From a virus, in the IMG/VR virus record IMGVR_UViG_3300047322_000201, positions 1-62,464 of that record: a DNA stretch of 62,464 nt; one strand, given 5' to 3'. Positions 5,754 to 62,464 of the stretch are shown piece by piece. The notes beneath the pieces are model-generated. The model saw only the letters and a list, made by a program, of their open reading frames with translations, had not been told where the DNA came from and did no database searches. The translations under genes were made by a program, and so were the position numbers. Numbering within the stretch: the first letter of the stretch is position 1; each line of letters begins with the position of its first letter.

Positions 5754-6226
5754 TCCTTGTTCTCCACGATCTCGACGCGCTTCACAGCAGCTTCAGCGGC
5801 CGCGCGGTCCAGGTTGATGTTGATGCTGAATCTCGGGCCGGTGTCGCCACCTGTGCCCACCTTGTTCTTCGGTAGCAGGTCGCCGGTCTTTACCAGCGCC
5901 TCGTAGATGGCCAGCTTCTGCGCGGCCGAGGTGTCAGAGCTCGCGCCGATGCGGATGAGCTCGTCCTGGATCATCTCGGCGCCCAGGCGGGCCTTGGCGA
6001 CCACCACCCACCCTTCGGCCTCGAGCTCCTTGCGCTTGCTCTCCACGGCCTTCTGGAAGCTCGGGGAGGCGACGAGGCGATCCCAGCGCGGGCCATCCCA
6101 TCCGAAGCGTGACGCGATCTCCGCGGGGTCTTCGAGACCTTGGGCGATTGACATCACCATCTCGGGCGGGAAGTTCAGGTCCGTCTGCGCGAGGGGGTCG
6201 AAGAGGGTGATCTTGCCTTCGCTCAT
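5750..6226 (-). CDS. Terminase small subunit-like protein
   Basis: A 158-residue protein just upstream of the large terminase. The first 70 residues look like a helix-turn-helix DNA-recognition region and are followed by a helical oligomerisation region. Such proteins bind the pac or cos site and load the large subunit. The C-terminus ends in a short beta/alpha portal-binding-like tail. The call rests on position, size and overall pattern. Confidence 0.75.
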   Translation of the reverse strand: MSEGKITLFDPLAQTDLNFPPEMVMSIAQGLEDPAEIASRFGWDGPRWDRLVASPSFQKAVESKRKELEAEGWVVVAKARLGAEMIQDELIRIGASSDTSAAQKLAIYEALVKTGDLLPKNKVGTGGDTGPRFSININLDRAAAEAAVKRVEIVENKE

Positions 6227-6459
6227 GCCGAGAACAGATCCGGTGCAATGAGCTCGTAGGCTGCCTCGAACACGGAGCCATCCACCACGGCCGTGCCGTC
6301 AAGGACGTAGTCGCCCAGCTTCGTGCTGGCGGGGACGAGCGCGTCGAACCCGTTATCGAGGGTAGCGTGGCGCTCCTCGGGGTTGGCCAGCTTGCCGAGG
6401 TCCACGACCTTGTGGGCGGTGATCTCGAGGGTGTTGCGTGCGCGGTGGGTGGAGGTCAT
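6223..6459 (-). CDS. Hypothetical protein, packaging operon
   Basis: A 78-residue protein linked by ATGA overlaps to both neighbours. The start at 6459 is chosen over upstream ATGs because it coincides with the previous gene's stop. The sequence is mixed alpha/beta with no membrane segment or motif that I recognise. Confidence 0.6.
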   Translation of the reverse strand: MTSTHRARNTLEITAHKVVDLGKLANPEERHATLDNGFDALVPASTKLGDYVLDGTAVVDGSVFEAAYELIAPDLFSA

Positions 6460-11668: not shown

Positions 11669-11761
11669 ATGGATCTCAAAACCGCCGCGCTCACCGCGGC
11701 CCTGTGTGCACTGTGCTACCTGGGCGGCGTCATCTCGACGATGGCTCTCATGGCGCAGTGA
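11669..11761 (+). CDS. Tiny membrane peptide
   Basis: A 30-residue peptide that is hydrophobic over almost all its length (Leu, Ala, Cys, Gly), with one likely membrane helix. It is preceded by GTTGAAG, a weak ribosome site. It is packed tightly between genes and is probably real. Confidence 0.45.
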   Translation: MDLKTAALTAALCALCYLGGVISTMALMAQ

Positions 11762-11816
11762 TTCACATGTCACGCGCCGCACACATCAACCTGTAAACCG
11801 TAAACGGATAACCAAC

Positions 11817-12353
11817 ATGTTCAAGCGTATCTACATCCACACCGGCTCCGACCGCGCGCAATACGCGTCGCCATGTGCTGAGCATACTGAGCCCGCCCCC
11901 ACCGAAGCCGACATGCTCCGCGCCGAGCTCGAAGACACGCAGCGCGTGGCGCACTACCAGCGCGAGACGATCGCCGCCCACCTGAGCACGATCGACAGCC
12001 AGCGCAAGATCATCAAAAGCCTGCACGACCGCTTTGATGGCACGACGATCGCTGAGTTGCGCAGCAAGCTGGCCGAATCCGAGGAGCAGAAGCGCGATCT
12101 GCAGGGCCGCATCCTGGGATACGACGCGGACTGCCACGGCATGCAGCAGCGCATCGTCGCTCAGTCGGATGCGTTGGAAGCCAAGGATGACGTGATCGCC
12201 CGCATGCGCGACACCCTCATCGCAAAGGACAAGAAGATAGCCGAGCAGGCCGCGGTGATCAACCATCTGAGCAAGGCGAATGTCGAGGAGCTCGAAGACC
12301 GCATCCATGACCTGGAAGTGAAGCTCAACTCCGCCCGCGTCGCACTGTCCTAA
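11817..12353 (+). CDS. Coiled-coil protein
   Basis: A 178-residue protein. After a 35-residue variable N-terminus it is nearly all heptad-like helix (about residues 35-175), rich in Leu, Glu, Arg and Gln. It is expected to form a long coiled-coil oligomer in the cytoplasm. No enzyme motif. A CACATGTCA word lies in the 55-base gap upstream (11764-11772). Confidence 0.65.
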   Translation: MFKRIYIHTGSDRAQYASPCAEHTEPAPTEADMLRAELEDTQRVAHYQRETIAAHLSTIDSQRKIIKSLHDRFDGTTIAELRSKLAESEEQKRDLQGRILGYDADCHGMQQRIVAQSDALEAKDDVIARMRDTLIAKDKKIAEQAAVINHLSKANVEELEDRIHDLEVKLNSARVALS

Positions 12354-23526: not shown

Positions 23527-23666
23527 CCCCCAAGGAAGAGGACAAGGACGAGCTTAAGTGGTGGACAGCCCGGCTGGAAATAGCGCGCGACGACAACGAG
23601 CGCCGGCTGTGCGAGCGATGCATCGCGCTAATCACCGCGCGGCTAATCGAGAACAACTATGACTGA
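23523..23666 (+). CDS. Small helical protein of the IALxTAxLME family
   Basis: A 47-residue acidic helical-hairpin protein ending CIALITARLIENN. It matches the tails of 11481, 13204 and 13547. It overlaps the DNA polymerase start by 8 bases, so its translation is coupled to polymerase. Confidence 0.6.
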   Translation: MTPKEEDKDELKWWTARLEIARDDNERRLCERCIALITARLIENNYD

Positions 23667-26400
23667 CATCGTAACCGGCGACTTCGAGACGTACTACGCC
23701 ACCGACTATAGCCTCACGCGTCTCACCACCGAGGCATATATCCGCGACGAGCGGTTCGAGGCGATCATGTTGGGCCTGAAGGTGAACGACGAGCCGGCGT
23801 ACATCGTCGACTCGACCGACATCGGCGCGGCGCTGCGCGACCTGAACCTCTCCAACAAGAAGTTCCTCGCGCACCACGCCGCGTTCGACGGCGCCATCCT
23901 CGAGTGGCGCTACGGCGCGCGGCCCGGCATGTACCTCGACACCCTGTCGCTCGCGCGGCCGGTGACAGGCAACACGGTGGGCTGCTCGCTCGACGCGCTC
24001 ACCAAGAAGTTCACGACGAGCGAGAAGGGCAAGGAGGTCGTGATGGCGCGTGGTAAGCGCCGGTCTGACTTCACGCCGGCCGAGTTCACCGCGTACGCCG
24101 GCTACTGCAAAAACGATGTGGAGCTTACCGCCCTGCTCTACCAGATCCTGCAGCAGTTCTCCACGCCGCAGGAGCACTACATCATCGACATGATGCTGCG
24201 CATGTTCACCGATCCGGTCTTCGAGCTCGATCGCACCACGCTCATCGAGCACCGCAACCAGGTGCAGGCGCAGAAGGCGCGGCTGCTCGAGAAGGTGGAG
24301 GCGTTCTGTGGCGCTGATGGATTGATGAGCAACGACAAGTTCGCCGAGGTGCTCGATCGCCTGGGCGTCGAACCACCGATGAAAGTATCGGTCGCCAAGA
24401 CGAACAACGCCACGAAGAACCCGAGCGGCGAGCCCGTCTACACCTACGCGTTCTCCAAGCAGGACGAGGCGTTCAAGGCGCTGCTCGAGCACGAGGACCC
24501 CATGGTGCAGGCCGTGGTCGCCGCCCGTCTGGGCGTGAAGTCCACCATCGAGGAGACGCGCGCTGAGTCGTTCCTGGGTATACAGATGCGCGGGCTGCTG
24601 CCTGTTTACTACCACTACTGGGGTGCGCACACTGGCCGCGCGTCCGGCGGCGACAAGGTGAACCTGCAGAACCTGACCCGCGGCGGCAAGCTGCGCGCCA
24701 GCATGAAGGCCCCGCCTGGCCACGTCGTCGTGGCATGCGACTCCGCGCAGATCGAAGCGCGCGTGGTGGCATGGTTAGCGGGTCAGACCGACCTTGTCGA
24801 GCGGTTCGCCGCCGGCGCGGACATCTATTCCGAGTTCGCCACGGACATCTACGGCTACCACGTCGATCGCAAGAAGAACACCGAGCATAAGGTGCAGGGC
24901 TTCGTTGGCAAGACGTGTTTCGCAGCGAACACTCGTGTATTAACAAACCGTGGTGCCGTAGATATCATCGACGTACAACCTACGGATTTGGTATGGGACG
25001 GAGAAGAATGGGTACGACACTCGGGGGTGGTCTTCCAAGGGGAGAAGGTGACGAAGGAATTTGCCGGAGTCCGCGCGACACCGGATCACGAAATCCTGAC
25101 GGAACATGGATGGCGGGAGTGGAGCGAGGTCAGTACAAGCCCTTCCCTTTTCCAATCGGCGCTGTCTTTGGCTGGCTCACCATCACAGGATGGGAGCGCC
25201 ACCATAACAAGCTCGGGAAGTCAGCGGGCTTCCACCCTGTTTGCCGATGCGTCTGTGGCTGGACAGGAAAGGTTGATCGACACAGCCTTAAGGCCGGGCG
25301 GTCCACGCGGTGCAACGCCTGCGCGAAAATCGCTGCGAGCACCAAGCGGTACTGGTGCTACAAAAACGCCATGCCTGACGACGAGCATCGAACTCGACTG
25401 CTCAATCGACTCTCTAGTGCAATCGCGCGCTGCCACAACCGTGGTAACCGTGCGTACCACGGGTACGGTGAACGTGGCATCGCAGTCTGCGATGAGTGGC
25501 GACGAGACCGCGCGGCCTTCTTGTGGTATGTCCAAACCGTCCCAGGGTGGGACGACCCAGAACTCGAGATGGACCGAGAGAACAACAACCGAGGATACGA
25601 GCCTGGTAACATCCGCTTCGCCACGCGAAAGGAGAACGTTGCTAATCGCAGAGAACTCGCCACGCTGGAGCGAAGAATCAGAGAGCTCGAGGCAGAGGTT
25701 GCCCGTCTTCGATCTGGCGAACGCGGGGCCGAGGAATAGGTTTGTCATCGTTACCGACTCCGGACCAGTGATCGCGCACAACTGTATTCTCGGCCTCGGT
25801 TTTGGGATGGGAGGCGACAAGCTGGACACCACCTTCCGAAAAGAGAAGGTCGACGGCGGGGTAGAGTTCGCGAAACACTGCGTGGACACCTACCGACAGA
25901 AGTATGGTGAGATCGTCAAGCTGTGGAAAAAATGCGACAACGTGCTTAAAGATGTTTGCAATGGGTACGAAGGGTATGTAGGCGTCGGCGTCGAGCTTTT
26001 GTGGAACCAGGATGGTATCCACCTGCCCAACGGCATGCTGATCCGCTACCCCGAGCTCAAGCGCGGCAAGGATGGCTTCGAATACAAGACCAAGCGCGGC
26101 TGGGTCAAGCTGTACGGAGCGAAGGTAGTTGAGAACATCGTGCAGGCGTTGGCGCGAATTGTCGTTTTCAATCAAATGGCTATGATCGACCAGCAGCTGC
26201 GCCCGCTGGACGCGCCCAGGCAGCGCCACCGCGTCGCCGCGTCGACACACGACGAAGTGATCGGCATCGTGCCGGAGGATAAAGCTAACTGGATGGTCAA
26301 CTTGATGCTAACGATTATGCGGAAAGTCCCTAAATGGGCATACGGTCTACCTATTAACTGCGAGGCAGAGTATGGTCTGACATATGGCGACTGTAAGTGA
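23659..26400 (+). CDS. Family A DNA polymerase precursor with intein
   Basis: A 913-codon gene. After removal of a 289-residue intein the polymerase is 624 residues. The 3'-5' exonuclease domain has DFE (8-10) and YCKND. Polymerase motif A is DSAQIEAR (D361), motif B is the O-helix GK(T)..CILGLGFGMG interrupted by the intein, and motif C is HDE (about 864 in the precursor). It is the replicative polymerase; no 5'-3' exonuclease domain is present. The intein separates catalytic O-helix residues, so splicing is needed for activity. The start overlaps the small gene upstream. Confidence 0.93.
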   Translation: MTDIVTGDFETYYATDYSLTRLTTEAYIRDERFEAIMLGLKVNDEPAYIVDSTDIGAALRDLNLSNKKFLAHHAAFDGAILEWRYGARPGMYLDTLSLARPVTGNTVGCSLDALTKKFTTSEKGKEVVMARGKRRSDFTPAEFTAYAGYCKNDVELTALLYQILQQFSTPQEHYIIDMMLRMFTDPVFELDRTTLIEHRNQVQAQKARLLEKVEAFCGADGLMSNDKFAEVLDRLGVEPPMKVSVAKTNNATKNPSGEPVYTYAFSKQDEAFKALLEHEDPMVQAVVAARLGVKSTIEETRAESFLGIQMRGLLPVYYHYWGAHTGRASGGDKVNLQNLTRGGKLRASMKAPPGHVVVACDSAQIEARVVAWLAGQTDLVERFAAGADIYSEFATDIYGYHVDRKKNTEHKVQGFVGKTCFAANTRVLTNRGAVDIIDVQPTDLVWDGEEWVRHSGVVFQGEKVTKEFAGVRATPDHEILTEHGWREWSEVSTSPSLFQSALSLAGSPSQDGSATITSSGSQRASTLFADASVAGQERLIDTALRPGGPRGATPARKSLRAPSGTGATKTPCLTTSIELDCSIDSLVQSRAATTVVTVRTTGTVNVASQSAMSGDETARPSCGMSKPSQGGTTQNSRWTERTTTEDTSLVTSASPRERRTLLIAENSPRWSEESESSRQRLPVFDLANAGPRNRFVIVTDSGPVIAHNCILGLGFGMGGDKLDTTFRKEKVDGGVEFAKHCVDTYRQKYGEIVKLWKKCDNVLKDVCNGYEGYVGVGVELLWNQDGIHLPNGMLIRYPELKRGKDGFEYKTKRGWVKLYGAKVVENIVQALARIVVFNQMAMIDQQLRPLDAPRQRHRVAASTHDEVIGIVPEDKANWMVNLMLTIMRKVPKWAYGLPINCEAEYGLTYGDCK
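24916..25782 (+). mobile_element. Intein in DNA polymerase motif B
   Basis: A 289-codon in-frame insertion starting with Cys (codon 420) and ending His-Asn before extein Cys 709. Block A-like CFAANTRVL, block B ATPDHEI (T-x-x-H) and block F/G-like VFDL..RFVIV...GPVIAHN are all visible. The part between block B and block F is Ser/Thr-rich and not protein-like in this frame. It contains the complete HNH gene (25110-25739) in another frame. This is a splicing-competent-looking intein with an out-of-frame endonuclease. Confidence 0.88.
25110..25739 (+). CDS. HNH homing endonuclease nested out of frame in the intein
   Basis: A 209-residue ORF in a different frame from the polymerase, wholly inside the intein. 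The N-terminal domain has the phage HNH pattern IGAVFGWLTI, then Cys pairs CRCVC and CNAC (zinc ribbon). The nuclease domain has GYGERGIAVCDEW, MDREN, GYEPGNIRFAT and ENVANRR. The C-terminal coiled-coil tail is rich in Glu, Arg and Leu. It has its own ATG and stop (TAG at 25737-25739). A GTG at 25119 is an alternative start, and no strong Shine-Dalgarno is seen. It probably cuts intein-less polymerase genes and so spreads the intein. Confidence 0.85.
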   Translation: MAGVERGQYKPFPFPIGAVFGWLTITGWERHHNKLGKSAGFHPVCRCVCGWTGKVDRHSLKAGRSTRCNACAKIAASTKRYWCYKNAMPDDEHRTRLLNRLSSAIARCHNRGNRAYHGYGERGIAVCDEWRRDRAAFLWYVQTVPGWDDPELEMDRENNNRGYEPGNIRFATRKENVANRRELATLERRIRELEAEVARLRSGERGAEE

Positions 26401-26430
26401 GATATCGCACATACCTATTAACCCTGTCGG

Positions 26431-26458
26431 TTGTAACTTCTCACAACGTGTGTATAGT
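26431..26458 (+). promoter_or_regulatory. Predicted sigma70-type promoter
   Basis: TTGTAA (26431-26436) and TATAGT (26453-26458) with a 16-base spacer, in the gap after the polymerase gene. It would drive the gene at 26493 and those downstream. Confidence 0.6.
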
Positions 26459-26492
26459 GTATGTATTAGTCACAATCTATATACATAAAGCC

Positions 26493-27119
26493 ATGATTTC
26501 TTATGACCAACAGCGCGCCAAGGCTGCTGTCGAGTACTTGGTAAATACGACCTATTTCCCGCACCGCGTCCGCGGACTGCGTACGGAGGTGAAGCGCCCG
26601 CGCGCACTCCCCTATAAAGGAGATGAAGAAGTGCTCAACGAACTGCTCGTGATCGGCCGGCAGAGCGAGCAGGCGATGGAGAACCTGATCGCGGTGGCGG
26701 AGTTCAAGCGCGATCAGGACCGCAACGCGTACCAGCGCCAATATATGGCTGCGCAGCGTCGCCGGTTCCGTTGGGCGGTGGAGCTCGAGGAGCGACGCAC
26801 CGGCGCCAAGCTGGGGCTCGATGAGCGCAACCGCCTCGCCCATGAAGTCCAGGCCATCTGGCTCGAGGAGCGCGACGCGTACGTTGAGCGGCGTGCCGAA
26901 CAGTGGATCGCTCAGCATGGCGGCGAAGTATCGTATGATGATCGCCGGATCTTCATCGAGCAGTTCTGGGACCAGAAAAATCAGGAGCTCCAGGCTATGC
27001 TTTCTGAGGTGCCGAGCGCGGATCATGTCATCCGAAAGAAGCGTCGAACCGTTACTGTCAGCACACCTACAACAGTCATGGGGCAGGCACTTCAAAAAGC
27101 GATTGACATTACCAAATGA
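26493..27119 (+). CDS. Hypothetical replication-region protein
   Basis: A 208-residue, highly charged helical protein with long Arg/Glu-rich helices (about residues 75-165) and a basic C-terminus. It lies between DNA polymerase and a RecB-like nuclease, so it is probably a DNA-metabolism accessory. A predicted promoter directly precedes it. No family recognised. Confidence 0.65.
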   Translation: MISYDQQRAKAAVEYLVNTTYFPHRVRGLRTEVKRPRALPYKGDEEVLNELLVIGRQSEQAMENLIAVAEFKRDQDRNAYQRQYMAAQRRRFRWAVELEERRTGAKLGLDERNRLAHEVQAIWLEERDAYVERRAEQWIAQHGGEVSYDDRRIFIEQFWDQKNQELQAMLSEVPSADHVIRKKRRTVTVSTPTTVMGQALQKAIDITK

Positions 27120-36168: not shown

Positions 36169-36173
36169 CCTCA

Positions 36174-36197
36174 GCCCCGGCCACGCGCCGGGGCTTT
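36174..36197 (+). terminator. Rho-independent terminator after primase-helicase
   Basis: An 8-bp stem, GCCCCGGC / GCCGGGGC, with a 5-base loop followed by TTT. It separates the lytic replication unit from the partition cassette. Confidence 0.8.
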
Positions 36198-36198
36198 C

Positions 36199-36238
36199 GT
36201 ATATACGGCGGTATGGACGTGCATCCATACGTATATAC
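36199..36238 (+). promoter_or_regulatory. Candidate partition site (parS/parC-like dyad)
   Basis: The order is GTATATAC (36199-36206), GGCG, GTATGGA (36211-36217), CGTGCA, TCCATAC (36224-36230), GTATATAC (36231-36238). An inner 7-bp inverted repeat is flanked by two identical self-complementary octamers. Type Ib partition systems keep their centromere and operator just upstream of parA, which is where this lies. Confidence 0.6.
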
Positions 36239-36256
36239 CGATCTCCTCATTCATGT

Positions 36257-36290
36257 AGAACTTGAAGTTCTCCCCGACATGCACTAGCCT
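36257..36290 (+). promoter_or_regulatory. Predicted parA promoter with overlapping inverted repeat
   Basis: AGAACTT-G-AAGTTCT (36257-36271) is a perfect inverted repeat. The -35-like TTGAAG (36262-36267) lies inside it, with TAGCCT (36285-36290) 17 bases further on. The overlap suggests autoregulation by the ParG-like protein. Confidence 0.5.
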
Positions 36291-36316: not shown

Positions 36317-37006
36317 ATGCTGATAGCGGTGGCATCACGCAAGGGCGGGGTGGGAAAGACCACCATCGCCACCAACCTAGCCGCAGGCAGAGCCGCCAGC
36401 GGATACGACACCAAGCTCATCGACACGGACCCAGAGCGCTACGCCTTCATGTGGGTCGGTACGCGCGCGGATAAGGGCGTCGAGCCTGAAATACGTGCGA
36501 CCTCCATGCAGGGCGAGATCAAGGGCGCGCTGATAGCCGACCGCATACAGGCCGATACAGTCATCGTGGACTGCGCTGGTGGCAACAGCGTGGAGCTCGT
36601 GCATGTGGTTGACGTCTGCGACGTGCTGATCATCCCGGTGAAGATCGGCCAGTTCGATGTCTGGAGCCTGATGGCCATCGCCAAGTTGATCGCGACTGCC
36701 CGACTTGAGCGGCAGTTCAAAGTGATCCCGGTGATGAACGCGCTCGATCCGCAGCAGCCTGACAGCCCGCTCGCACGCGCGCTCGAGCAGCAGGTGAAGG
36801 CGTGCTTCGACGATCCGATCGTGAAGATATACGAGCGTGTGAGCGTGGCGTACGCGGCGATCGAAGGGAAGGGCGTGCTCGAGCTCAAGGCAAACCGGGA
36901 CAACGCCAAAGCAATCGACGAATTTTCAACGCTCTACCAGGAGGTGTTCAATGAGCCCACGCGATGTGTCATTCGCCCAAGTGCCGCAGCTGTCGCCAGC
37001 GCTTAA
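36317..37006 (+). CDS. parA: ParA-type partition ATPase
   Basis: A 229-residue ATPase of the small ParA/ParF type without an N-terminal HTH. The deviant Walker A is KGGVGKTT (9-16), Walker A' is IDTDPE (about 40), and Walker B is VIVDCAGG (about 80). It uses ATP-dependent DNA binding to move or anchor plasmid copies. GGGAGG precedes the ATG. It overlaps the ParG-like gene by 56 bases. Presence of a ParA in a phage with no integrase supports plasmid-like lysogeny. Confidence 0.9.
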   Translation: MLIAVASRKGGVGKTTIATNLAAGRAASGYDTKLIDTDPERYAFMWVGTRADKGVEPEIRATSMQGEIKGALIADRIQADTVIVDCAGGNSVELVHVVDVCDVLIIPVKIGQFDVWSLMAIAKLIATARLERQFKVIPVMNALDPQQPDSPLARALEQQVKACFDDPIVKIYERVSVAYAAIEGKGVLELKANRDNAKAIDEFSTLYQEVFNEPTRCVIRPSAAAVASA

Positions 37007-37253
37007 GCAGTTCGAGGAAGAAGCGCGCGGGCAGCGCAGCAATCCCGTGGAACCAGCGCCGGCCGAGCGCCAAGGGAAGAGGGTGTCCCTGAAGCCACGC
37101 GTCGACACGCGCAAATTCAGCCTCAATATCCCGATCCCGCTGCATGAGGAGCTCCTGGAGTTCTCGAAGGACACCGACCTCGACATGAGCGAGGTGCTCA
37201 TCGAAGGCGCGAAGCGCGAGATGGTGCGTCTTCGCAAGCTCCACGGTCTGTGA
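36951..37253 (+). CDS. ParG-like RHH centromere-binding protein
   Basis: A 100-residue basic protein with a disordered, basic N-terminal half and a C-terminal ribbon-helix-helix pattern: the KFSLNIPIP strand, helix LHEELLEF, then helix MSEVLIEGAKREM. This is the ParG/omega layout, in which the RHH binds the centromere and the N-terminal tail stimulates ParA. AGGAGG lies before the ATG, inside parA. It would also repress the operon. Confidence 0.8.
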   Translation: MSPRDVSFAQVPQLSPALKQFEEEARGQRSNPVEPAPAERQGKRVSLKPRVDTRKFSLNIPIPLHEELLEFSKDTDLDMSEVLIEGAKREMVRLRKLHGL

Positions 37254-37568
37254 TTCCGATCCGACTCCCGGCAGTGAACCCCACTGCCGCTCGGCGGACC
37301 GGCTGCGTGGCTGCCGATACCGGCAGAGAGACAAAAAACCGGGCAAACCTAACCCGTAAGAACCTAGATCAAGAGGGAATTCTCGGAGAGCCACGTAAAC
37401 ACTAGACCCTGCGTCTCATTTTTGAGTCGCGAAGTGATCAAAAATGAGCCTGATAGTGCTCGCTGGGAAGATCACTTCTGGTACTAAAAATGGGACTGAT
37501 TGTGCTAGGCAAGTTGCGCACATGCCGTAGCGTGTGTATGCTCCGCGAAGTGCTAAAGGAGAAGCGAC
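37254..37568 (+). other. Non-coding replicon control region with iteron-like repeats
   Basis: 315 bases without a gene. It holds a perfect 11-bp inverted repeat (37415-37425/37438-37448), a second 9-bp inverted pair (37431-37439/37470-37478), and two 21-base direct repeats (37440-37460 and 37486-37506) that match at 18 positions with a 46-base period. The repL promoter follows. The layout fits a plasmid origin or copy-control region. Confidence 0.65.
37514..37542 (+). promoter_or_regulatory. Predicted repL promoter
   Basis: TTGCGC (37514-37519) and TATGCT (37537-37542) with a 17-base spacer, 27 bases before the repL start and directly after the direct repeats. This suggests repression by whatever binds them. 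Confidence 0.6.
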
Positions 37569-38036
37569 ATGACAGCCAAGTTCCGTGGGGTTCGCAAGAT
37601 CTGCGACGTCGACACCGGCGACATCATGAACGTCCAGGTGGTGGATAAGAGCGTCGGTGATCGTGGATTCAAAAAAATCTGGATGGCCCAGATCCTCGAC
37701 CTTGTCGACGAGGTCGGCAACGCCAAGATGAAGGTGCTCGCGTGGTTGATCGACGCGGCCGATAACAAGAACCAGGTGCTCGCCACGCTCACCGAGATCG
37801 CCGATGCGACCGACACAAGCCGCGCGACAGTGCAACGCTTGATGTCCGTCCTGAAGAAAGCCAACGTGATCGCTGAGACACGCCGGTCGCTGTGGCGCCT
37901 GAACCCGGAGATCATCTTCGCGGGCAACCACGACCAGCGCATGGCCGTCCTGATCCGATACAACAACGAGAAGCAGAAAGATCTGTTCGATGAAAAGCCC
38001 GAAGAGAAGCTCTCGCACCTGCGCGCGGTAGCCTAA
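37569..38036 (+). CDS. RepL-family plasmid replication protein
   Basis: A 155-residue winged-helix protein matching the RepL family pattern: KIWMAQILDLVDEVGNAK, KVLAWLID, TLTEIADATDTSRATVQRLM (HTH), then LWRLNPEIIFAGN and the closing AVLIRY. RepL proteins are sequence-specific replication initiators of small plasmids. Here it sits with parA and a centromere candidate. AAAGGAGAAG precedes the ATG. This is not the P1 RepL protein, which is longer. Confidence 0.85.
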   Translation: MTAKFRGVRKICDVDTGDIMNVQVVDKSVGDRGFKKIWMAQILDLVDEVGNAKMKVLAWLIDAADNKNQVLATLTEIADATDTSRATVQRLMSVLKKANVIAETRRSLWRLNPEIIFAGNHDQRMAVLIRYNNEKQKDLFDEKPEEKLSHLRAVA

Positions 38037-38037
38037 C

Positions 38038-38060
38038 TTATCCACAATTTCTGTGGATAA
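38038..38060. promoter_or_regulatory. Inverted pair of perfect DnaA boxes (origin candidate)
   Basis: TTATCCACA (38038-38046) and TGTGGATAA (38052-38060) are both exact E. coli-type DnaA boxes in inverted orientation, 5 bases apart, starting just after the repL stop. They could also form a 9-bp hairpin, but no T-run follows. A host-DnaA-assisted plasmid origin is likely. Confidence 0.75.
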
Positions 38061-38424: not shown

Positions 38425-41400
38425 TCACTCGTCGGGGTCTTGGCCCTCCGCCAGCAGCCGGCTGCGGATCGCGTTGTAGTTGCGCGCGCTGCCTTGCACG
38501 CCACGCTGCGTCCAGTGCTTCTGCTTCTCGGCGCTCACCAGCCCACGGAACAGCATCGAGCCAGCCGGCGGCTTCATGCCGTTCTGACTCATCTCCGTGG
38601 CGGTCTCGGCGAATTGCTTCTGCACGTCAGCCATGGTGCCGGCGTCGCCATCCTTCAGCGCGCGCTGGAACTGCGTGGCCATCTCGTTGAACTTCGACGT
38701 GTAGTGCGCCTCGTCGGTCTGCTCATCCTTGGCCACACGCTGCGCGTCCGCCACCGACTTCGGCTGGATACCCACCGCCTGCGCGGCGATATCAGCTGTC
38801 GAGAGATTCTCCGGCGCGATGCGCTGCGTGCCCTTCTTGTCGGCGAAGCCATCGGTCGCGAGGCCGTACGCCTTCAGGCCGTCCTGAATGCCCTTGGGCA
38901 TCATGGCCGCCAAGCCACCGTACCAATCCCCCTTCATCATCTGCCCCACACCGCCGAGCATATTGATTGCCGTGCCGCCGGTCGGGCCAGCCACCGCCAG
39001 AGCCGCATCGCCCAGCTGCGCGCGCGTAGGGATCTCCCCGTGCGCCACGCTGCTGGCGATCTCAAGCGGCTTGACCAGCGGATCGAAAATATCCCCCGCA
39101 CCAATTTTCCGTTCAGCATTCACCCCCATCACCCCTGGCACACCGTGCGTCAGGAAGTCGCCAATCGTGGAGTCACCCACCGCCTGACGGATGTACGACT
39201 CAGTGCTCATCGCCTTGTCGTGCTCATCGCCAAACAGGTTCTTGATCGCCCCCGCCACCAGCATCGCACCTGGCACGCCGGCGGCGCCCGCCAGCACGCC
39301 GTAGTGGCCAGCCATGAACGCCAGCGACTTCTGCGCGATCGCGCGCTCCTCGGGCGTCGCCCCCTTGAATGACTCGCGCGCCAGGTTCACCACCATCGAG
39401 CCGTGCAGCACGTGGAACTTCTTGTACTGGGTGGCAAGACGCAGCAGCGGGTTGGCGCTTGCGAGCGCGCGCGGTGCGTTGGCCGCCGAGTAATCGCCGT
39501 ACGCCGACATGATCGTGTCCGTGGCGAACTTCACGCCCGCATCGTGCGCATCGGTGGCCGACTTGCCAGCGCGCTCCGCGTCCTTGAACGCCAGGCGGTA
39601 GGCCGCCAGCGCCGAGAGGATGCGGTTGTGCGTCTCGAGCGTGCGCGGGATCTGGCTCATCTTGCCGGTGACCGTATGGAATGCCGCCGACGCTGCGTTG
39701 TCGCTGTACACCGCCGGGCGCCCTGCTTCCAGATCGCTGCCGTGCTCGAGAATGTTCCGGGCCTGCAGCGCACGCAGCATCCCGACCTCGTCGCCCACCT
39801 TGTTCACGTGCTTGGCGAGATCCGGCTTGACCCACGACGACGACTTGGCGATCGCGATCGCATCCTGCAAACCACTGTGGAGTTCACGCCAGCCATGCGC
39901 ATAGCCATAGCGCCCCTGCAGGATTGGCAGCGCCATGGTGACCGGCTGCGAGAGGTACTGCAGGTAGTGCGCCGGCGAGCTCAGCAGACGCCACACCGAG
40001 TTGAACTGCAGCAGGTTGTCCATCACCCGCGACGGCTCGTTCTTCATCTGCTGGATGCGCCGCGCGGCGAACTCGTTGGCGAAGTCCTGCCGCTCCTTCG
40101 CCAGCTTCGGGTCGGTCGTCTCGCGCACCTCGCGCGACATCGCCGCCTGCGCCTTGTTGATGGCGTCACCGTGGACGGCCTCGGATACCATACGGTTGCG
40201 GTTCTGGCCGTTCATGAAGAACGACATCAGCGCCTGCTCGCCCTTAACCCCCACGACGTTGCCGCGCTTGAGGTTTGAGGCGCGCGCCGAGTTGTCGGCC
40301 ATCTTCTGGAGCATGAGCTCCTTGAGCATCTTCGCCATGTCGTCGGCTGCGGCCGGGTCGACGCCCTCCTGCTCGCTCACCGACTTGCGGATCTTCTCAG
40401 CCCACGCGTCGACCGTCGCGAACGACGCGCCGTGCGTGTCAGAGTAATACTTGTCGCGCGCCATCGCCTTGACGTTCTGGCTGCCGAACTTCATGTCCAG
40501 CTGGCGCTTGACCTCGTTGGCCAGGGCCTGCGATGCCTCGTGGCCGTAGTAATAGTGGTTGGCGTCCTGCTTCAGCTGCGTGAGACGTGCCTGCGCGCCG
40601 TCGCGCTCGGCCGCGAGGTACTCGTGCGACTTGGCCTCGACGACGAACTCACCGTGGCGGCGCAGCGGGAAGTACGGGCCATCCATGCGCGGCTCGACGC
40701 CCTTAGGCATCTCCACGCCTGCGCGCTGCGAGGCTTCCTTAAGCGCCACGAACTCGCGCTGCTGCTGCTCGACGCCTTCCTTGTTGAGCGACTTGATGAC
40801 TTCCTGCACATTGGTGGGCAGCTTGTCGAAGCGCGCCTTGGTCGACGGGTCCACCGTGACGCCCTTGTTCCAGTCGGCCTCATAGCCCCACTTGCCCCAC
40901 ATCGTGGTGTCGGTGAGGTAGTCGCCCGCCATGCGGCGTTCGTTCGGCTTGAGCTTCGACGCCTCGGTGCCGAGCTCCGCGATGTGCGCGTTGAGCGCGT
41001 TGCGGTAGGCGTCCTTGCGCGAGATCGCATCCATGTACTCGCGCGGCGTCTTCATGCCAGCGGTCTTCTCGGCGAGGTTCGCCAGGTCGTGGCCGAAGCG
41101 GATCGCCTTGGCGGCGACGCCCGTGACATGTGCGAGGTTGTCGTAGATGCGTCGCACCGGGCCTTGAGCGGCCTCGGGCAGCTTCGAGATTACGCGCTCG
41201 GCTCGTCCGGGAGCGCCATCGAACCCTGTGGGTCGAGTCCCCTCACTGCTTGCGGCAGCGGCTTGCTCTGCGTCTCGAGTTGAGCTGCGGGCGGCTCGGC
41301 GCGCGTTGGCGGCTGCTGCGAGTTCTCGGAGTCGCTCGTCGCTGTGGCTGGCGTAGGCGTCTGCGGGCTCTGCTGGCTCGCCGCGCCCACCTTCGTCCAG

Positions 41401-44400
41401 TCCACCTTGTTCGGATCGGGCAGCCCCTTCAGTGCGCCCTTGGGTGTCACGAACGGCGAACTCGATGCCGCGGCCTGTCGCGTGAGACTCCGTGCCATGT
41501 TGAAGCGCTTCTGGGTTGCGTTTGACATTCTCCACTACCTCTTTCATGAACTTGGCCGTGGCGGGCGCGTACTGCTCGAGCTTCGCGCGCCACGTCGGAT
41601 TGGTGTACATCGACCACAGCTGCGAGAATACCTCGCCCTGCAGGCGCTTGCGCGACATCGGATAGGCGTCACGGTTCAGCGGGTAGTCGAACAGGCCCTC
41701 GAGCAGCGGATCGCCCGACTTGAACATGGCGTCGACTTCGCGCGCGACCTCGCCGCTGCCTTCCCAGCCGTGCTCGCCGAGCGAGAAGCGCATCTCCGGC
41801 TGGATCGAGTAGACACCACCGTGACCGATGTCGTCGACCACGTGGCCCACTTCGTGGCGCAACGTGTGCGCGAGCAGTGCGCCACCGTTGTCGGACACCT
41901 CGCGTGAGATGCCAACCTTCATGCCACCGTTCGGATCGGCCACCGCGTAGCCGTCGCCATCGAACTGGTGTGGCTCGAAGACGTGGTATTCCGTGGCGGC
42001 ATCCAGCGCATGCGTGATGCCCAGGCGATCGTACTCGCGCTCGGTGTCGCGCACCGTATCCGCGTTGTTCTCAGCGATCTCCTTGAAGCCCGGCGACGTG
42101 CGCGAGTCGTACTCGTACATGCCGTTGTCGTACTTGTCGACGATGCCGGCGAAGCGGTCGCGGTTGGCCGTGCCAGCCTTGAGCGCGTCGTGCCACTCAC
42201 CCTTGAGCGAGCTCGGCAGGTCATCGAACTTCACGCCCGACTCCTGGTGGAGCTCTTGCTTTTCCCACGCCGTGCGCGCGGCGCCGTGCTCGTCATCCAT
42301 CTCGGACTCGAAGCCACGCTTGCGGATCTGCGCCTCAAGCGCGTCGAGCTTCTCCTGGATGGCGTCGGCCTCGGCGTGCTTGCCCTTCGCCACGAGATCT
42401 TCCTGCTTCTCGCGCAGCTTGGCCCACTGCGTGACGTGGTCGCCGCCGTCCGCCACGTTCGACTTCGAGCCGCCGGCCGTGACCGTGCCAGTGCCCGTCA
42501 TGTCGTCGAGCTCTGCGTGGCCCAGGCGGTCGCCGGCGTTGGGCGCCAAGCTCGACTCACCATAGCCGAGCTCCTGCTGGATCTCGTACGCCTTGTCACC
42601 GACCGCCGCGCGCTCAAGCGCCTCATCGGCTTCTGCTTTAGCGCGACGCTTGGCAGCCTCATCGTGGAAGAGCTTCATGAGCTCCTCCGGCTCCATGCCG
42701 ATGTTCTTCATGGCCTGCGGGATCTCCGCGGCCTTTTGCTTGCGCCACGCCTCGTTCGTCAGCTGGCTGATACGGCCTTCAGTCAGGCCATGCTGCGAGG
42801 CGACGTCGGCGATCGCCGAGCCATCATGGACGGCCGCGAAGATCGACAGGTCGCGCGCGGCGTTCTTGCCGGGGAAGAGTTGCTTGGCAAGCTCAACGAA
42901 GCGCGGGTGCGCAACCTCCTCACCAGCTTCCTGCTTGGCAGCCTCGGCGGGCTTTGCGTCCCACGGCGACTTGTAATCGCCATGCATGATCGACTCGATC
43001 TCGCCATGCGTCAGCGCGCCCGTCCGCTGGGTGATCGAGTTGACGTGCCCGTACTTGAGCGCGCCGTCGCTTTCACGCACGCGGTCCTGCAGGCGACGAA
43101 TCATTTCCGATCGCGTGATCTCGCCGTTCATGTAGGCCACGACGTCGTTCTGCGCGCGATTCATGCCGGTCGGCTCTTTGCCGCCGACCGGCTTCACCTC
43201 GGGGTAGTCGTGGTGGTCGCGCAGTTCGATCTCGCCGCGGGTGTCCTTCTCACCACGCACCGGCTTGCCGCCGGGCGTGATCATCATGGTGCCCGCGGAG
43301 TCGCGCCTTACTTCTTCGCCTTCTGCACCGGACTCGGCCCGGCCAGCTGCATCTCGCCCACCACGTACAGCGGCATCCCCAGCCGGGCTGCGATCCGCTG
43401 CTCCCTCGCTTCGTACGCTGCCGACTCGTGCGGCTCCTGCTTCGACTCCATCCGATTGTCGCAACTCACCTGCTGGTCGAACTGATACCGATCCCACGTC
43501 TGCGGATCGTCCAGCGACGTCCCCGGCAGGGGCTTGCTCTTGTCCGCGAAGTTGTTCAGTGCCATTGATGCTTCTCCGTTTCTTGACCTTGACGAGAGTG
43601 TTCTGCGTCGTGGCGTCCAGCGGACGACCATCGACGTAGGCTTTAGGTGCTTCTCCTCTGATCGCGGCGTCCCAATCGGCATCGGTCGGCACGCGGTCCG
43701 AGAAATAAGTTGTCGGCTCATGTGGCTCAGCGAGCGCAGCTTGCCACGCTGCTTCGCTCTCGCTTACTTCACCGGCTTCGGCAGATCCTGCGCGTACATC
43801 TGCCGGTTGTTGTTCTTGAAGCCCGGTGCCTTCGGTGCCTTGGGCATCGGTGCCTTGGCGGGCTTCGCCACTGCCTGCTTGGGGAACGGCGTCGCCTTGG
43901 GCGCCATTGCCTTGGGCATCGGTGCGGACGCCTTCGGCAGCGACGGCGCCTTGGGTTGCGGAACTTTCGCCGCCTTCAGGGCGGGCATTGCTGGCATCTT
44001 GGACATTGTTTTCTCCGATGAGTTTTTTGCGCCACTCGTTGAGGACGCCGCGTTTGAAGTCCGAGGACTCCGCCTTCGAGCGCTCGAGCTTCTTGAGCGC
44101 GAGATCGATCTTCATCACTGCATCGGCATGCGACTGGATGTCGCCCACGCCGATCAGCTTGGTGAACTGGTCGAGCTCCTTGGGCGTCGGGTGCGGGCCG
44201 AGGCCATCCGCGTCCTTTGGCCGATCCATGGGGTTATGCTCGCGCCACGCGTCGACGAACACGTGCTCGAGGTCGTGCTGCACGTCGGACTTGGCGAGCT
44301 CCTTCGTGGCGACCTTAGCCTGCGCGCGGTTGAACTCGTCGGTCGTGGTGTGCTCGTCGCCCGCCCACGCGTGCGCGCCCGGCACCGGCTGGCCCGAAGG

Positions 44401-45864
44401 AGCGTGGATGATGTCGCCACGCGGGCCGAACTTCGACTCGGCAAGCGCCACGCCACCTTGCTGCTTAATCTCAGCCTGCTTCTGCGCGTTGGCATCGTCG
44501 GTGTTGTGCGATGCCTCAATCACGTCGCCGAGCGTCGCCGGGCGGATTTCCACGCCGGTCTGCGGGTCGTGGATCATGAACGGCGTCGGCTGGTCCAGCG
44601 CACCCTTCATGTCGGACTGCACAGGCGCACGTGCCACGCCGGTGTTCTGGTCGATGATCGACTGGATCGGCGTCGGCTGAGGGCCGTGAATGTTCTGGAG
44701 CGCGGGGTTAGGTGCGGCTGCGTCGGTGGCGCCGTAGCCGAGCGTCTGCGCGCTGTCGGCCACAGGGTTGACGCCCTGTGCTTCGTTGGCTTTCTGACGT
44801 GCTTCGAAGTCACCGCGCTGCGCTTCCACACCGCCGGGGAAGATGCGCGGAGCATTCTGGTCCGGCACGGTCGGGTCGTGCGGCAGGCGCGGCACCGAGG
44901 AGCCCACCGAGTTCGCTGCGTCGCCGGCGGGGTCGCCAGTCTTGACGCCCTCGTTGGCGCCGTCGAGCGCGGACTTCGGATGGAAGATCGGGTGCAGCGC
45001 AGCGCCGGCGACAGCACCGCCGACGAAGCCATGACCCGCGGCGGATGCGAGGTTCTGGTTCCACGCGTCGCCATTGCCGACGTTCTCGCCCAGCTGCGAG
45101 CCAGTGGCCATACCTGCGCCCTGCACGCCTTGGTCCACCGCGCCGGCGGTAGCCTTCTGGATGAAGTCGCCAACAAACGGCACCTTGGCTGCTAACTTAC
45201 CCGCGAGCGGCGTGAGGAACTTGGAGCCCAGCGCCATCGTGGCGGCCGTGGTGACGCCAGCGATCGGAGCAGCCTCGTAGGCCCCAGCGATATTGTCCGG
45301 GTTCTTGTCGAGTACGTTCTGTGCCGAGGTGCCTGCGGCTTGCACGCCCGCGCCAACCGGGCCGAGCGCCACGCCAGCGGCGAGGTTAGGCGCGGCTTCG
45401 ACGGCCGAGCCGAGTGCTGCCATCGGATGGCGCGCGTAGGCGCCGGCGGTGTTCCAGAAGCCCTGCGCGTCCTCGATGTCCTTCTCGTCCGCTTGGAGCT
45501 TGGCCGAGAGATCCTGGCCAAGCTCCTTGTTGGCCTGGCCAAGCGTCTTGATCGGCGCGAGCGCTTCAGCGGCCTGCTCGCCATACTTCTTGGCGATTGC
45601 GGCGTGGAGATCACGGTCGGCCTTGCCAGTGCCACCACCCGTGGCGAGGTTGCCCAGACCCTTGATCGACTGCTCGACTTCCTGTACGCCCTGCGCGAGC
45701 TTCACCGCCGAGTCGGGGGTATGCCGGGCGATCCACGACTGTTCGCGAGGCGCGTCGTCCCCGATCTCCGTGTAATCCGTGAGCTTGCCAGGCGAGGTCG
45801 AGTCAGACGGCGCGCTAGGCCCAGCGGTAGCCGATACGTCCTCGTAGTCGGTGATCTTCGGCAT
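38425..45864 (-). CDS. Giant internal virion protein with HExxH motif
   Basis: A 2479-residue protein, last gene of the late unit. The N-terminal 300 residues have hydrophobic Gly/Ala-rich segments. A long Ala/Glu/Gln/Gly-rich helical region, with low complexity around residues 650-900, follows. HEVGH at 1337-1341 with a downstream His resembles a zinc metallopeptidase, and the C-terminal third is helical with Ala-rich hydrophobic stretches. Podoviruses eject such proteins with their DNA; they degrade cell wall or form the ejection tube. Bcep22-type phages carry a protein about twice as long, from memory. The peptidase function is inference. Confidence 0.8.
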   Translation of the reverse strand: MPKITDYEDVSATAGPSAPSDSTSPGKLTDYTEIGDDAPREQSWIARHTPDSAVKLAQGVQEVEQSIKGLGNLATGGGTGKADRDLHAAIAKKYGEQAAEALAPIKTLGQANKELGQDLSAKLQADEKDIEDAQGFWNTAGAYARHPMAALGSAVEAAPNLAAGVALGPVGAGVQAAGTSAQNVLDKNPDNIAGAYEAAPIAGVTTAATMALGSKFLTPLAGKLAAKVPFVGDFIQKATAGAVDQGVQGAGMATGSQLGENVGNGDAWNQNLASAAGHGFVGGAVAGAALHPIFHPKSALDGANEGVKTGDPAGDAANSVGSSVPRLPHDPTVPDQNAPRIFPGGVEAQRGDFEARQKANEAQGVNPVADSAQTLGYGATDAAAPNPALQNIHGPQPTPIQSIIDQNTGVARAPVQSDMKGALDQPTPFMIHDPQTGVEIRPATLGDVIEASHNTDDANAQKQAEIKQQGGVALAESKFGPRGDIIHAPSGQPVPGAHAWAGDEHTTTDEFNRAQAKVATKELAKSDVQHDLEHVFVDAWREHNPMDRPKDADGLGPHPTPKELDQFTKLIGVGDIQSHADAVMKIDLALKKLERSKAESSDFKRGVLNEWRKKLIGENNVQDASNARPEGGESSATQGAVAAEGVRTDAQGNGAQGDAVPQAGSGEARQGTDAQGTEGTGLQEQQPADVRAGSAEAGEVSESEAAWQAALAEPHEPTTYFSDRVPTDADWDAAIRGEAPKAYVDGRPLDATTQNTLVKVKKRRSINGTEQLRGQEQAPAGDVAGRSADVGSVSVRPAGELRQSDGVEAGAARVGSVRSEGAADRSPAGDAAVRGGRDAAGRAESGAEGEEVRRDSAGTMMITPGGKPVRGEKDTRGEIELRDHHDYPEVKPVGGKEPTGMNRAQNDVVAYMNGEITRSEMIRRLQDRVRESDGALKYGHVNSITQRTGALTHGEIESIMHGDYKSPWDAKPAEAAKQEAGEEVAHPRFVELAKQLFPGKNAARDLSIFAAVHDGSAIADVASQHGLTEGRISQLTNEAWRKQKAAEIPQAMKNIGMEPEELMKLFHDEAAKRRAKAEADEALERAAVGDKAYEIQQELGYGESSLAPNAGDRLGHAELDDMTGTGTVTAGGSKSNVADGGDHVTQWAKLREKQEDLVAKGKHAEADAIQEKLDALEAQIRKRGFESEMDDEHGAARTAWEKQELHQESGVKFDDLPSSLKGEWHDALKAGTANRDRFAGIVDKYDNGMYEYDSRTSPGFKEIAENNADTVRDTEREYDRLGITHALDAATEYHVFEPHQFDGDGYAVADPNGGMKVGISREVSDNGGALLAHTLRHEVGHVVDDIGHGGVYSIQPEMRFSLGEHGWEGSGEVAREVDAMFKSGDPLLEGLFDYPLNRDAYPMSRKRLQGEVFSQLWSMYTNPTWRAKLEQYAPATAKFMKEVVENVKRNPEALQHGTESHATGRGIEFAVRDTQGRTEGAARSEQGGLDEGGRGEPAEPADAYASHSDERLRELAAAANARRAARSSTRDAEQAAAASSEGTRPTGFDGAPGRAERVISKLPEAAQGPVRRIYDNLAHVTGVAAKAIRFGHDLANLAEKTAGMKTPREYMDAISRKDAYRNALNAHIAELGTEASKLKPNERRMAGDYLTDTTMWGKWGYEADWNKGVTVDPSTKARFDKLPTNVQEVIKSLNKEGVEQQQREFVALKEASQRAGVEMPKGVEPRMDGPYFPLRRHGEFVVEAKSHEYLAAERDGAQARLTQLKQDANHYYYGHEASQALANEVKRQLDMKFGSQNVKAMARDKYYSDTHGASFATVDAWAEKIRKSVSEQEGVDPAAADDMAKMLKELMLQKMADNSARASNLKRGNVVGVKGEQALMSFFMNGQNRNRMVSEAVHGDAINKAQAAMSREVRETTDPKLAKERQDFANEFAARRIQQMKNEPSRVMDNLLQFNSVWRLLSSPAHYLQYLSQPVTMALPILQGRYGYAHGWRELHSGLQDAIAIAKSSSWVKPDLAKHVNKVGDEVGMLRALQARNILEHGSDLEAGRPAVYSDNAASAAFHTVTGKMSQIPRTLETHNRILSALAAYRLAFKDAERAGKSATDAHDAGVKFATDTIMSAYGDYSAANAPRALASANPLLRLATQYKKFHVLHGSMVVNLARESFKGATPEERAIAQKSLAFMAGHYGVLAGAAGVPGAMLVAGAIKNLFGDEHDKAMSTESYIRQAVGDSTIGDFLTHGVPGVMGVNAERKIGAGDIFDPLVKPLEIASSVAHGEIPTRAQLGDAALAVAGPTGGTAINMLGGVGQMMKGDWYGGLAAMMPKGIQDGLKAYGLATDGFADKKGTQRIAPENLSTADIAAQAVGIQPKSVADAQRVAKDEQTDEAHYTSKFNEMATQFQRALKDGDAGTMADVQKQFAETATEMSQNGMKPPAGSMLFRGLVSAEKQKHWTQRGVQGSARNYNAIRSRLLAEGQDPDE

Positions 45865-61414: not shown

Positions 61415-62419
61415 TTAGCCCGCTGCGACGAGCGTCGCGAGCGAGTCCGGTTGCGTCACGCCGTAGCCGTAGATGTTCAGGCCGCGGACCAGGTTGCCGA
61501 AGTCGTTCGGGTTCTGGAGCGACTCGACCTTCGCGATCTGCGAGGCGAAGCTGATCGCCGACTTGTGGCCTGCGATGATCGCGTGGCGCTTGGCCGTGCC
61601 ACCCGCTGCGCCGCCCGTCCAGTTCTGAGCCGCAGCCGCGCGCGGTGTGAGGTTCGAGACGTAGACCGTGAAGCGGTCGATCTGGCCGATGCGGCCGTTA
61701 CGCAGGATCGACTGGCCGTCGCCCATGAACTGGGCCTGCGCCAGGTTCGATTGCATCAACAGCTGACGCTCGGTCGGCGTGAGGATCAGCCAGCGGTCCG
61801 TTTCCGGCACGTTCGCTTCGTCGAGCACGCTCGAGAGCGACGTGATCATCTGCAGGATGTTCGCCGCGGTCAGGGACACCGGCGCCGTGTCGGTGCCGAG
61901 GTTGTACGCGCCCGAGATCTTGCCGGCCGTTGCGCCCATGTTGGTCGCCGATCCGCCGTTGAACGTGCCGCCGAGGACGTCCTTGTCGATCGTGATCTTC
62001 ATCTGCATCGACGCGTCGTTGGTGAACATGTCCATCAGCTTCGGCTTCGACTGAAGCTCGAGGACGTTGTTGACGTTGACGCCGAAGTACTTGCCCTTGT
62101 TGATCTGCAGCGTGATCGTCGACGGCGCCGGCACGTCGTAATTCAGCGACTGGCCGACCGAGTAGTTGTAGATGTTGATCGTCGGGATCGTGTTGATGAT
62201 CACCGTGTCGCCCATCTGGCTGATATCACCCTGCCAGTCCGTATTCGCGATTTCGCCGAATACAGTGGCTGCATAAAACTTCTGCGCGAGCTTGCCGGAC
62301 CAGAGCGCCGGGATGAAGGTGCCGCTGTAAGCCGTGCCGCCGTAGGCGACTTGACCGGCCGGGCTGTTGAAGCCGCCAGCGTTGATCGGATAGACTGCGC
62401 CCGGGGTTACGGTTGCCAT
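61415..62419 (-). CDS. Major capsid protein
   Basis: A 334-residue coat protein, likely HK97-fold. The sequence is beta-rich, with NTIPTINIYNY and PSTITLQINKGKYFGVNVNN, a DRWLILTPTERQLL helix, and a C-terminal GYGVTQPDSLATL; this resembles P22/N4-type coat proteins. A good AGGAGA ribosome site and a terminator downstream suggest high expression. The left 82 bases of the window repeat its first codons because the contig is circular. Confidence 0.88.
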   Translation of the reverse strand: MATVTPGAVYPINAGGFNSPAGQVAYGGTAYSGTFIPALWSGKLAQKFYAATVFGEIANTDWQGDISQMGDTVIINTIPTINIYNYSVGQSLNYDVPAPSTITLQINKGKYFGVNVNNVLELQSKPKLMDMFTNDASMQMKITIDKDVLGGTFNGGSATNMGATAGKISGAYNLGTDTAPVSLTAANILQMITSLSSVLDEANVPETDRWLILTPTERQLLMQSNLAQAQFMGDGQSILRNGRIGQIDRFTVYVSNLTPRAAAAQNWTGGAAGGTAKRHAIIAGHKSAISFASQIAKVESLQNPNDFGNLVRGLNIYGYGVTQPDSLATLVAAG

Positions 62420-62464
62420 GGTGATGCTCTCCTAAAAAGATGGGGTGAACCAGGCAACCGAACC
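62338..62464. repeat. Right copy of exact 127-bp terminal redundancy
   Basis: Identical to bases 1-127. It confirms that the contig closes to a 62,337-bp circle. Confidence 0.95.

Follow-up and report, generated by a model that had tools for sequence, protein, structure and literature searches.

The par-rep locus of a circular phage genome

The window, i.e. the whole stretch of 62,464 bases that makes up the virus record, is a circular phage genome of 62 kb. Its ends are identical over 127 bp (1-127 and 62338-62464), which indicates a circular or a circularly permuted genome; a similar overlap is present in the contig of a relative, L004. The repeat would fit a complete circular assembly and be compatible with an extrachromosomal prophage, and it would also fit packaged circularly permuted DNA. 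Virion genes were recognized by portal and tail-fibre matches and they co-occur with a plasmid initiator (RepL) and ParA, which is the gene combination of a phage-plasmid. No match to Phage_integrase (tyrosine) or Resolvase (serine) was found in the window, and the controls were positive. Since ParA, an RHH-type protein and a RepL initiator are present and no integrase was found, the window fits a phage-plasmid, probably living as a plasmid.

The region of interest (Table 1) follows the gene of a 990-aa DUF927 primase/helicase-type protein, from which it is separated by a GC-rich hairpin (−20 kcal/mol, z −3.6) that is nearly identical in L004 and similar in a second relative, L003. In line with a type Ib partition ATPase, ParA has its deviant Walker A motif at residues 9-16 and lacks an N-terminal HTH. 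It matched PHROG 164 (E 1e-32) and NF041546 (E 2e-32, under that model's curated cut-off), and a profile search matched the TP228 ParF structures 4dzz and 5u1g, with ParF/Soj structures among the matches. The RepL protein is 61% identical to RepL from an Acetobacter pasteurianus plasmid. Further downstream, 38425-45864 encodes a 2479-aa protein with a DarB-like antirestriction match confined to the C-terminal part (residues 1725-2430).

Table 1. Features of the par-rep locus in window coordinates (L003 and L004, the two relatives carrying the par operon).
Feature	Position	Strand	Description
GC-rich hairpin, likely primase/helicase gene terminator	36173..36195	+	left edge of exchanged cassette
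Candidate parS array	36199..36238	.	four GTATATAC-like 8-bp boxes in a single 4-bp frame
AGAACTT-G-AAGTTCT dyad	36257..36271	.	overlaps -35; absent from L003 and L004
Putative parA promoter	36262..36290	+	TTGAAG (36262-36267), 17 nt, TAGCCT (36285-36290)
parA	36317..37006	+	229 aa, small partition ATPase of the Walker-box type, KGGVGKTT
Small RHH-type centromere-binding protein candidate	36951..37253	+	100 aa, gene overlaps parA
Likely origin region	37256..37506	.	hairpin after RHH gene, inverted and 21-bp direct repeats before rep; putative function
rep, RepL-type plasmid replication initiator	37569..38036	+	155 aa, PF05732 E 4e-30
DnaA box pair	38038..38060	.	convergent, perfect, TTATCCACA-N5-TGTGGATAA; right edge of cassette, directly after rep

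In the small protein encoded from 36951 the N-terminal half is mostly without predicted structure and the C-terminal part shows a strand-helix-helix pattern. Its own Pfam scan was empty, i.e. below thresholds, and the RHH assignment rests on its relatives, which match RHH_3 (0.004) and an Arc-like repressor PHROG (7e-5). Its C-terminus was aligned in register to partition proteins of the CopG type by hhalign; an AlphaFold model was poor (pLDDT 66, pTM 0.25) and a PDB fold search uninformative. The earlier note on this DNA called the protein ParG-like, which agrees with its architecture but not with its sequence, as neither it nor the two relatives gave a Pfam ParG match at E≤1 and no ParG chain was found in a PDB sequence search at E≤10. 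The placing of the proposed site before a parA gene was right, as the downstream gene encodes a ParF-like ParA and the relatives of the next gene's product match RHH/Arc-like models. Residues S/T57 and N59, in the supposed DNA-contacting strand, are common to the three phages, which would fit a common box code.

The box array and the promoter upstream of parA

Direct reading of the sequence gave exact copies of GTATATAC at 36199-36206 and 36231-36238 and, between the two octamers, an inverted repeat of GTATGGA (36211-36217) and TCCATAC (36224-36230), just as the earlier note had described. The array as a whole consists of four boxes (36199-36206, 36211-36218, 36223-36230 and 36231-36238), of which two are off-consensus and some are separated by 4-bp gaps. 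The octamer occurs twice in the 62,464 bases, both times inside the array, with 0.05 copies expected and two copies in none of 100 shuffles. The 40-bp array is also an imperfect palindrome in which 15 of 20 pairs are paired, and this was matched by 13 of 5000 dinucleotide shuffles with a fixed centre and by 3 of 2000 with the best centre. A parameter-free score, for which tetramers with a repeat or a complement in a single 4-bp frame are counted, was scanned genome-wide and had its maximum of 15 at 36199, with 10 at the runner-up place. The dyads in the array are real and far above chance.

The upstream regions of the window, L003 and L004 were compared ungapped, counting back from the parA start codon, because the gaps introduced by MAFFT mask the common box positions. 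The window, L003 and L004 share boxes resembling the octamer at −106, −94 and −86, and an additional box is present at −118 in the window and at −114 in L004, L003 having a GTAC only. Among the three phages, on which the conservation evidence for the array rests, the invariant columns are 16 of 40 in the array, 13 of 28 in the three-box core and 4 of 23 in the neighbouring linker. The tetramers GTAT, ATAC, GTAA, TTAC and GTAC occur 18 times, always in the same one of the four frames, and 18 was reached by none of 5000 dinucleotide shuffles, a statistic that is post hoc since the tetramer set was picked after viewing the sequences and the phages are related. Each of the three genomes has one cluster of GTAT/ATAC boxes; the L003 array scores weaker on the parameter-free measure. 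A lack of conservation of the dyads in relatives had been named earlier as a refuting condition, and when this was checked the box array was found to be kept in both L003 and L004. The GTATGGA/TCCATAC inverted repeat is present in the window but is not conserved in the relatives, where the common unit is the 8-bp box, and the AGAACTT/AAGTTCT dyad is likewise window-specific among the three phages. On this comparison, the conserved features are the box array and the promoter and not the two inverted repeats.

The promoter block TTGAAGT-N13-CACTAGCnTAC is identical in sequence and position in all three phages (TTGAAG at −55, CACTAGCnTAC near −35). As a strict sigma-70 consensus scan did not call a parA promoter, the support for it is its conservation. 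The array ends 23 bp before the conserved −35 and overlaps neither the promoter nor the ribosome site. The dyad closer to parA (AGAACTT at 36257-36263, a 1-base spacer and AAGTTCT at 36265-36271) does exist and does overlap TTGAAG, as had been claimed, but the TTGAAG part alone is conserved; its given distance of sixty bases downstream holds when counting begins where the first octamer starts, whereas it is about 19 bp from the array end. Because of its absence from both relatives the dyad is probably incidental. The earlier note was thus largely right in kind and is corrected in detail, since the conserved elements are 8-bp boxes in a 4-bp frame rather than inverted repeats.

A GTAT-rich stretch at 26436-26550 was considered as a second parS and rejected, because it is conserved as a promoter-like element in front of a different gene. 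The intergenic region 26410-26485, which follows the polymerase gene, is strongly conserved up to the gene after it, with a promoter-like TTGTAA-16-TATAGT and two TCACAA motifs, and is retained in L003, where the surrounding identity is 73%. The ORF of the family-A DNA polymerase itself (23659-26400) has an intein-like insert at about residues 420-700, which begins CFAANTRVLTNRG and ends VIAHN before C, and its Pfam polymerase match ends at residue 406.

Exchange of the par-rep cassette between related phages

Searches of IMG/VR with ParA or with the RHH protein as single queries gave no relative, and a profile search with the three ParAs gave no further close relative in IMG/VR or GTDB genomes. 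The two relatives were obtained with the primase, which found 78 loci in IMG/VR, two of them carrying the par operon; of the loci with the primase, 46 extend 2 kb or more downstream of it, and among these the ParA motif is present in L003 and L004 only, within the available sequence. Compared with the window, L004 is 99% identical in the primase, 62% in ParA and 38% in the RHH protein, and the corresponding values for L003 are 87%, 63% and about 54-55%.

When the identity between L004 and the window was followed per 100 bases it was ~94-100%, mostly 97-99%, up to 36196, fell to 59% in the array block, 60-69% (~65%) in parA and 43-51% (~45% over rep) in the rep region, where there is no homology, and was back at ~98% by 38096. 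The left edge of the diverged segment is the end of the terminator-like hairpin and the right edge is the convergent DnaA-box pair, of which L004 retains both boxes around another 5-nt centre and which is absent from the L003 locus. From this alignment, the array, parA, the RHH gene and rep are exchanged as one cassette in which the boxes are kept. As the array and the RHH gene lie inside the same exchanged cassette, the two co-vary while the box type is retained, and this exchange of the whole cassette with its boxes is the strongest indication of the array being the probable cognate site of the RHH protein. Other gaps and diverged stretches are found elsewhere in the window and L004 genomes, and the par-rep cassette is therefore one of several exchanged segments.

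The initiators differ. RepL of the window corresponds in L003 to a distant RepL whose nearest resemblance is to the initiators of small plasmids from Gram-negative bacteria, and in L004 to a winged-helix protein, the sole plasmid match of which is the rep of Polaromonas pA29BJ2, with the same gene order. The repeats in the likely origin region of the window contain no GTAT boxes and, along with rep, differ completely among the three phages. In L004, four GGGTGAGGG-type iterons (CCCTCATGGGTGAGGG) lie downstream of rep at 11712-11833 and likely form an origin unlike that of the window. In L003 an extra gene (5974-6228) between the primase and the array has a product resembling the pyocin activator PrtN (PF11112, E 8e-24).

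Exchange of par/rep modules among phage-plasmids has already been described and explained as an escape from incompatibility (PMC10879196; PMC7157519). A tentative extension, which we favour less than its alternatives taken together, is that in this phage group the centromere, the partition genes and the initiator form a single exchangeable identity cassette, and that sister genomes may recombine at two flanking conserved palindromes, here the primase terminator hairpin and the convergent DnaA-box pair, leaving the box code nearly unchanged. If this is true, phages that are mostly ~95-99% alike would switch incompatibility type and could share a host cell, and the GTAT/ATAC code of the RHH protein would stay nearly the same despite the exchange. 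The two sister phages, near-identical on both sides of their diverged par-rep cassettes, constitute a natural experiment on partition specificity and incompatibility, in which the surroundings are nearly constant.

A candidate type Ib centromere and its known counterparts

Short repeated boxes in cis adjoin the par operon, as in type Ib systems, and we take the array, with a probability of roughly 70%, to be the centromere (parS) of a ParA/RHH partition operon of type Ib carried by a phage-plasmid. Dimers of the RHH protein would cover the 8-bp boxes one next to the other, and the N-terminal tail of the bound protein would engage ParA on the nucleoid and stimulate its ATPase, by which the copies of the prophage-plasmid would separate before cell division. 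The RHH-array complex may also tune its own operon, the array then being a possible autoregulatory operator. Because the array ends shortly upstream of the conserved −35, such autoregulation by the same complex is probable, and it is plausible despite the lack of overlap between the array and the conserved promoter.

That short gap bears also on the idea that the array is an operator only, at which the RHH protein represses parA, the true centromere being located elsewhere, e.g. among the repeats that follow the gene of the RHH protein. Several plasmid relatives do have a palindrome such as TTTTAATATTAAAA immediately before parA, in operator position, and the repeats and hairpins at 37256-37506 are available as an alternative centromere. 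However, the array of the window stops short of both the promoter and the ribosome site, and the downstream repeats lack the boxes and have changed completely with rep, and we therefore regard this explanation as unlikely. A protein other than the RHH protein, such as a phage repressor or a host regulator, could bind the array, and the occurrence of similar boxes beside RHH proteins that are merely 38-55% identical leaves room for such a shared factor; with the array being the sole such cluster per genome and sharing its exchanged cassette with the RHH gene, this seems quite improbable. The dyads might instead act at the RNA level, as a terminator or attenuator hairpin for transcripts that run from the primase gene into parA, since in the window the array is able to fold (−14.8 kcal/mol) and directly follows the gene end. 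This was set aside after a folding test and is the kind of explanation to which we give very little credence: the GC-rich hairpin just upstream is much stronger, the z of the array fold is −1.7 only, and neither L004 nor L003 has the same pairing partners. It is the box frame and not a stem that is conserved.

The preferred reading, a type Ib parS, describes a system of known arrangement, notable here chiefly for its clean cassette exchange. It provides a defined candidate parS for a group of phage-plasmids known here from metagenomes only. The arrangement resembles TP228 parFGH in its small ParA without HTH, which profile-matches ParF 4dzz, its putative downstream RHH partner with a disordered N-terminus and its array of degenerate short boxes as proposed centromere (PMC7308502, PMC5393062), but the boxes of the window are of the GTAT/ATAC type, the partner has no ParG sequence match and a conserved second operator array at the promoter is absent. 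In the delta/omega/parS system of pSM19035, RHH ParB dimers bind short repeats 5' of the par genes (PMC9499535), as is proposed for the window. Those repeats are 7-bp, non-palindromic, contiguous WATCACW sequences overlapping promoters, whereas the boxes of the window are 8-bp and near-palindromic, have 4-bp gaps and lie upstream of the promoter. At least four contiguous repeats are required in pSM19035 (PMC9499535), and in this comparison the short array of four boxes, some of them 4 bp apart, counts against a parS function in the window.

The extrachromosomal mycobacteriophages RedRock and Miko resemble the window in having no integrase and a par cassette, and their parS has 8-bp repeats (PMC7157519), like the candidate parS of the window, and the ParB of their group has diversified, probably avoiding incompatibility (PMC7157519). 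They differ from the window in having two parS loci, which in RedRock contain eight 8-bp direct repeats each (PMC7157519), in their host group and in RepA or RNA-based origins instead of RepL. The closest ParA in the plasmid set (40%) is that of Polaromonas pA29BJ2, with the order parA, small protein and wHTH rep, but the boxes upstream of it are mostly GTAAAG/CTTTAC and its small protein cannot be aligned to that of the window by BLASTP. Palindromes are also found upstream of distant ParA/RHH operons, TTTTAATATTAAAA in many of them and TTGATATCAA in phage KS14. These palindromes differ from one distant parA gene to another, and therefore short palindromic boxes are usual in this position and their sequence varies by system; in an AT-rich Rickettsiales plasmid the box upstream of parA is GTATATAC itself, present twice.
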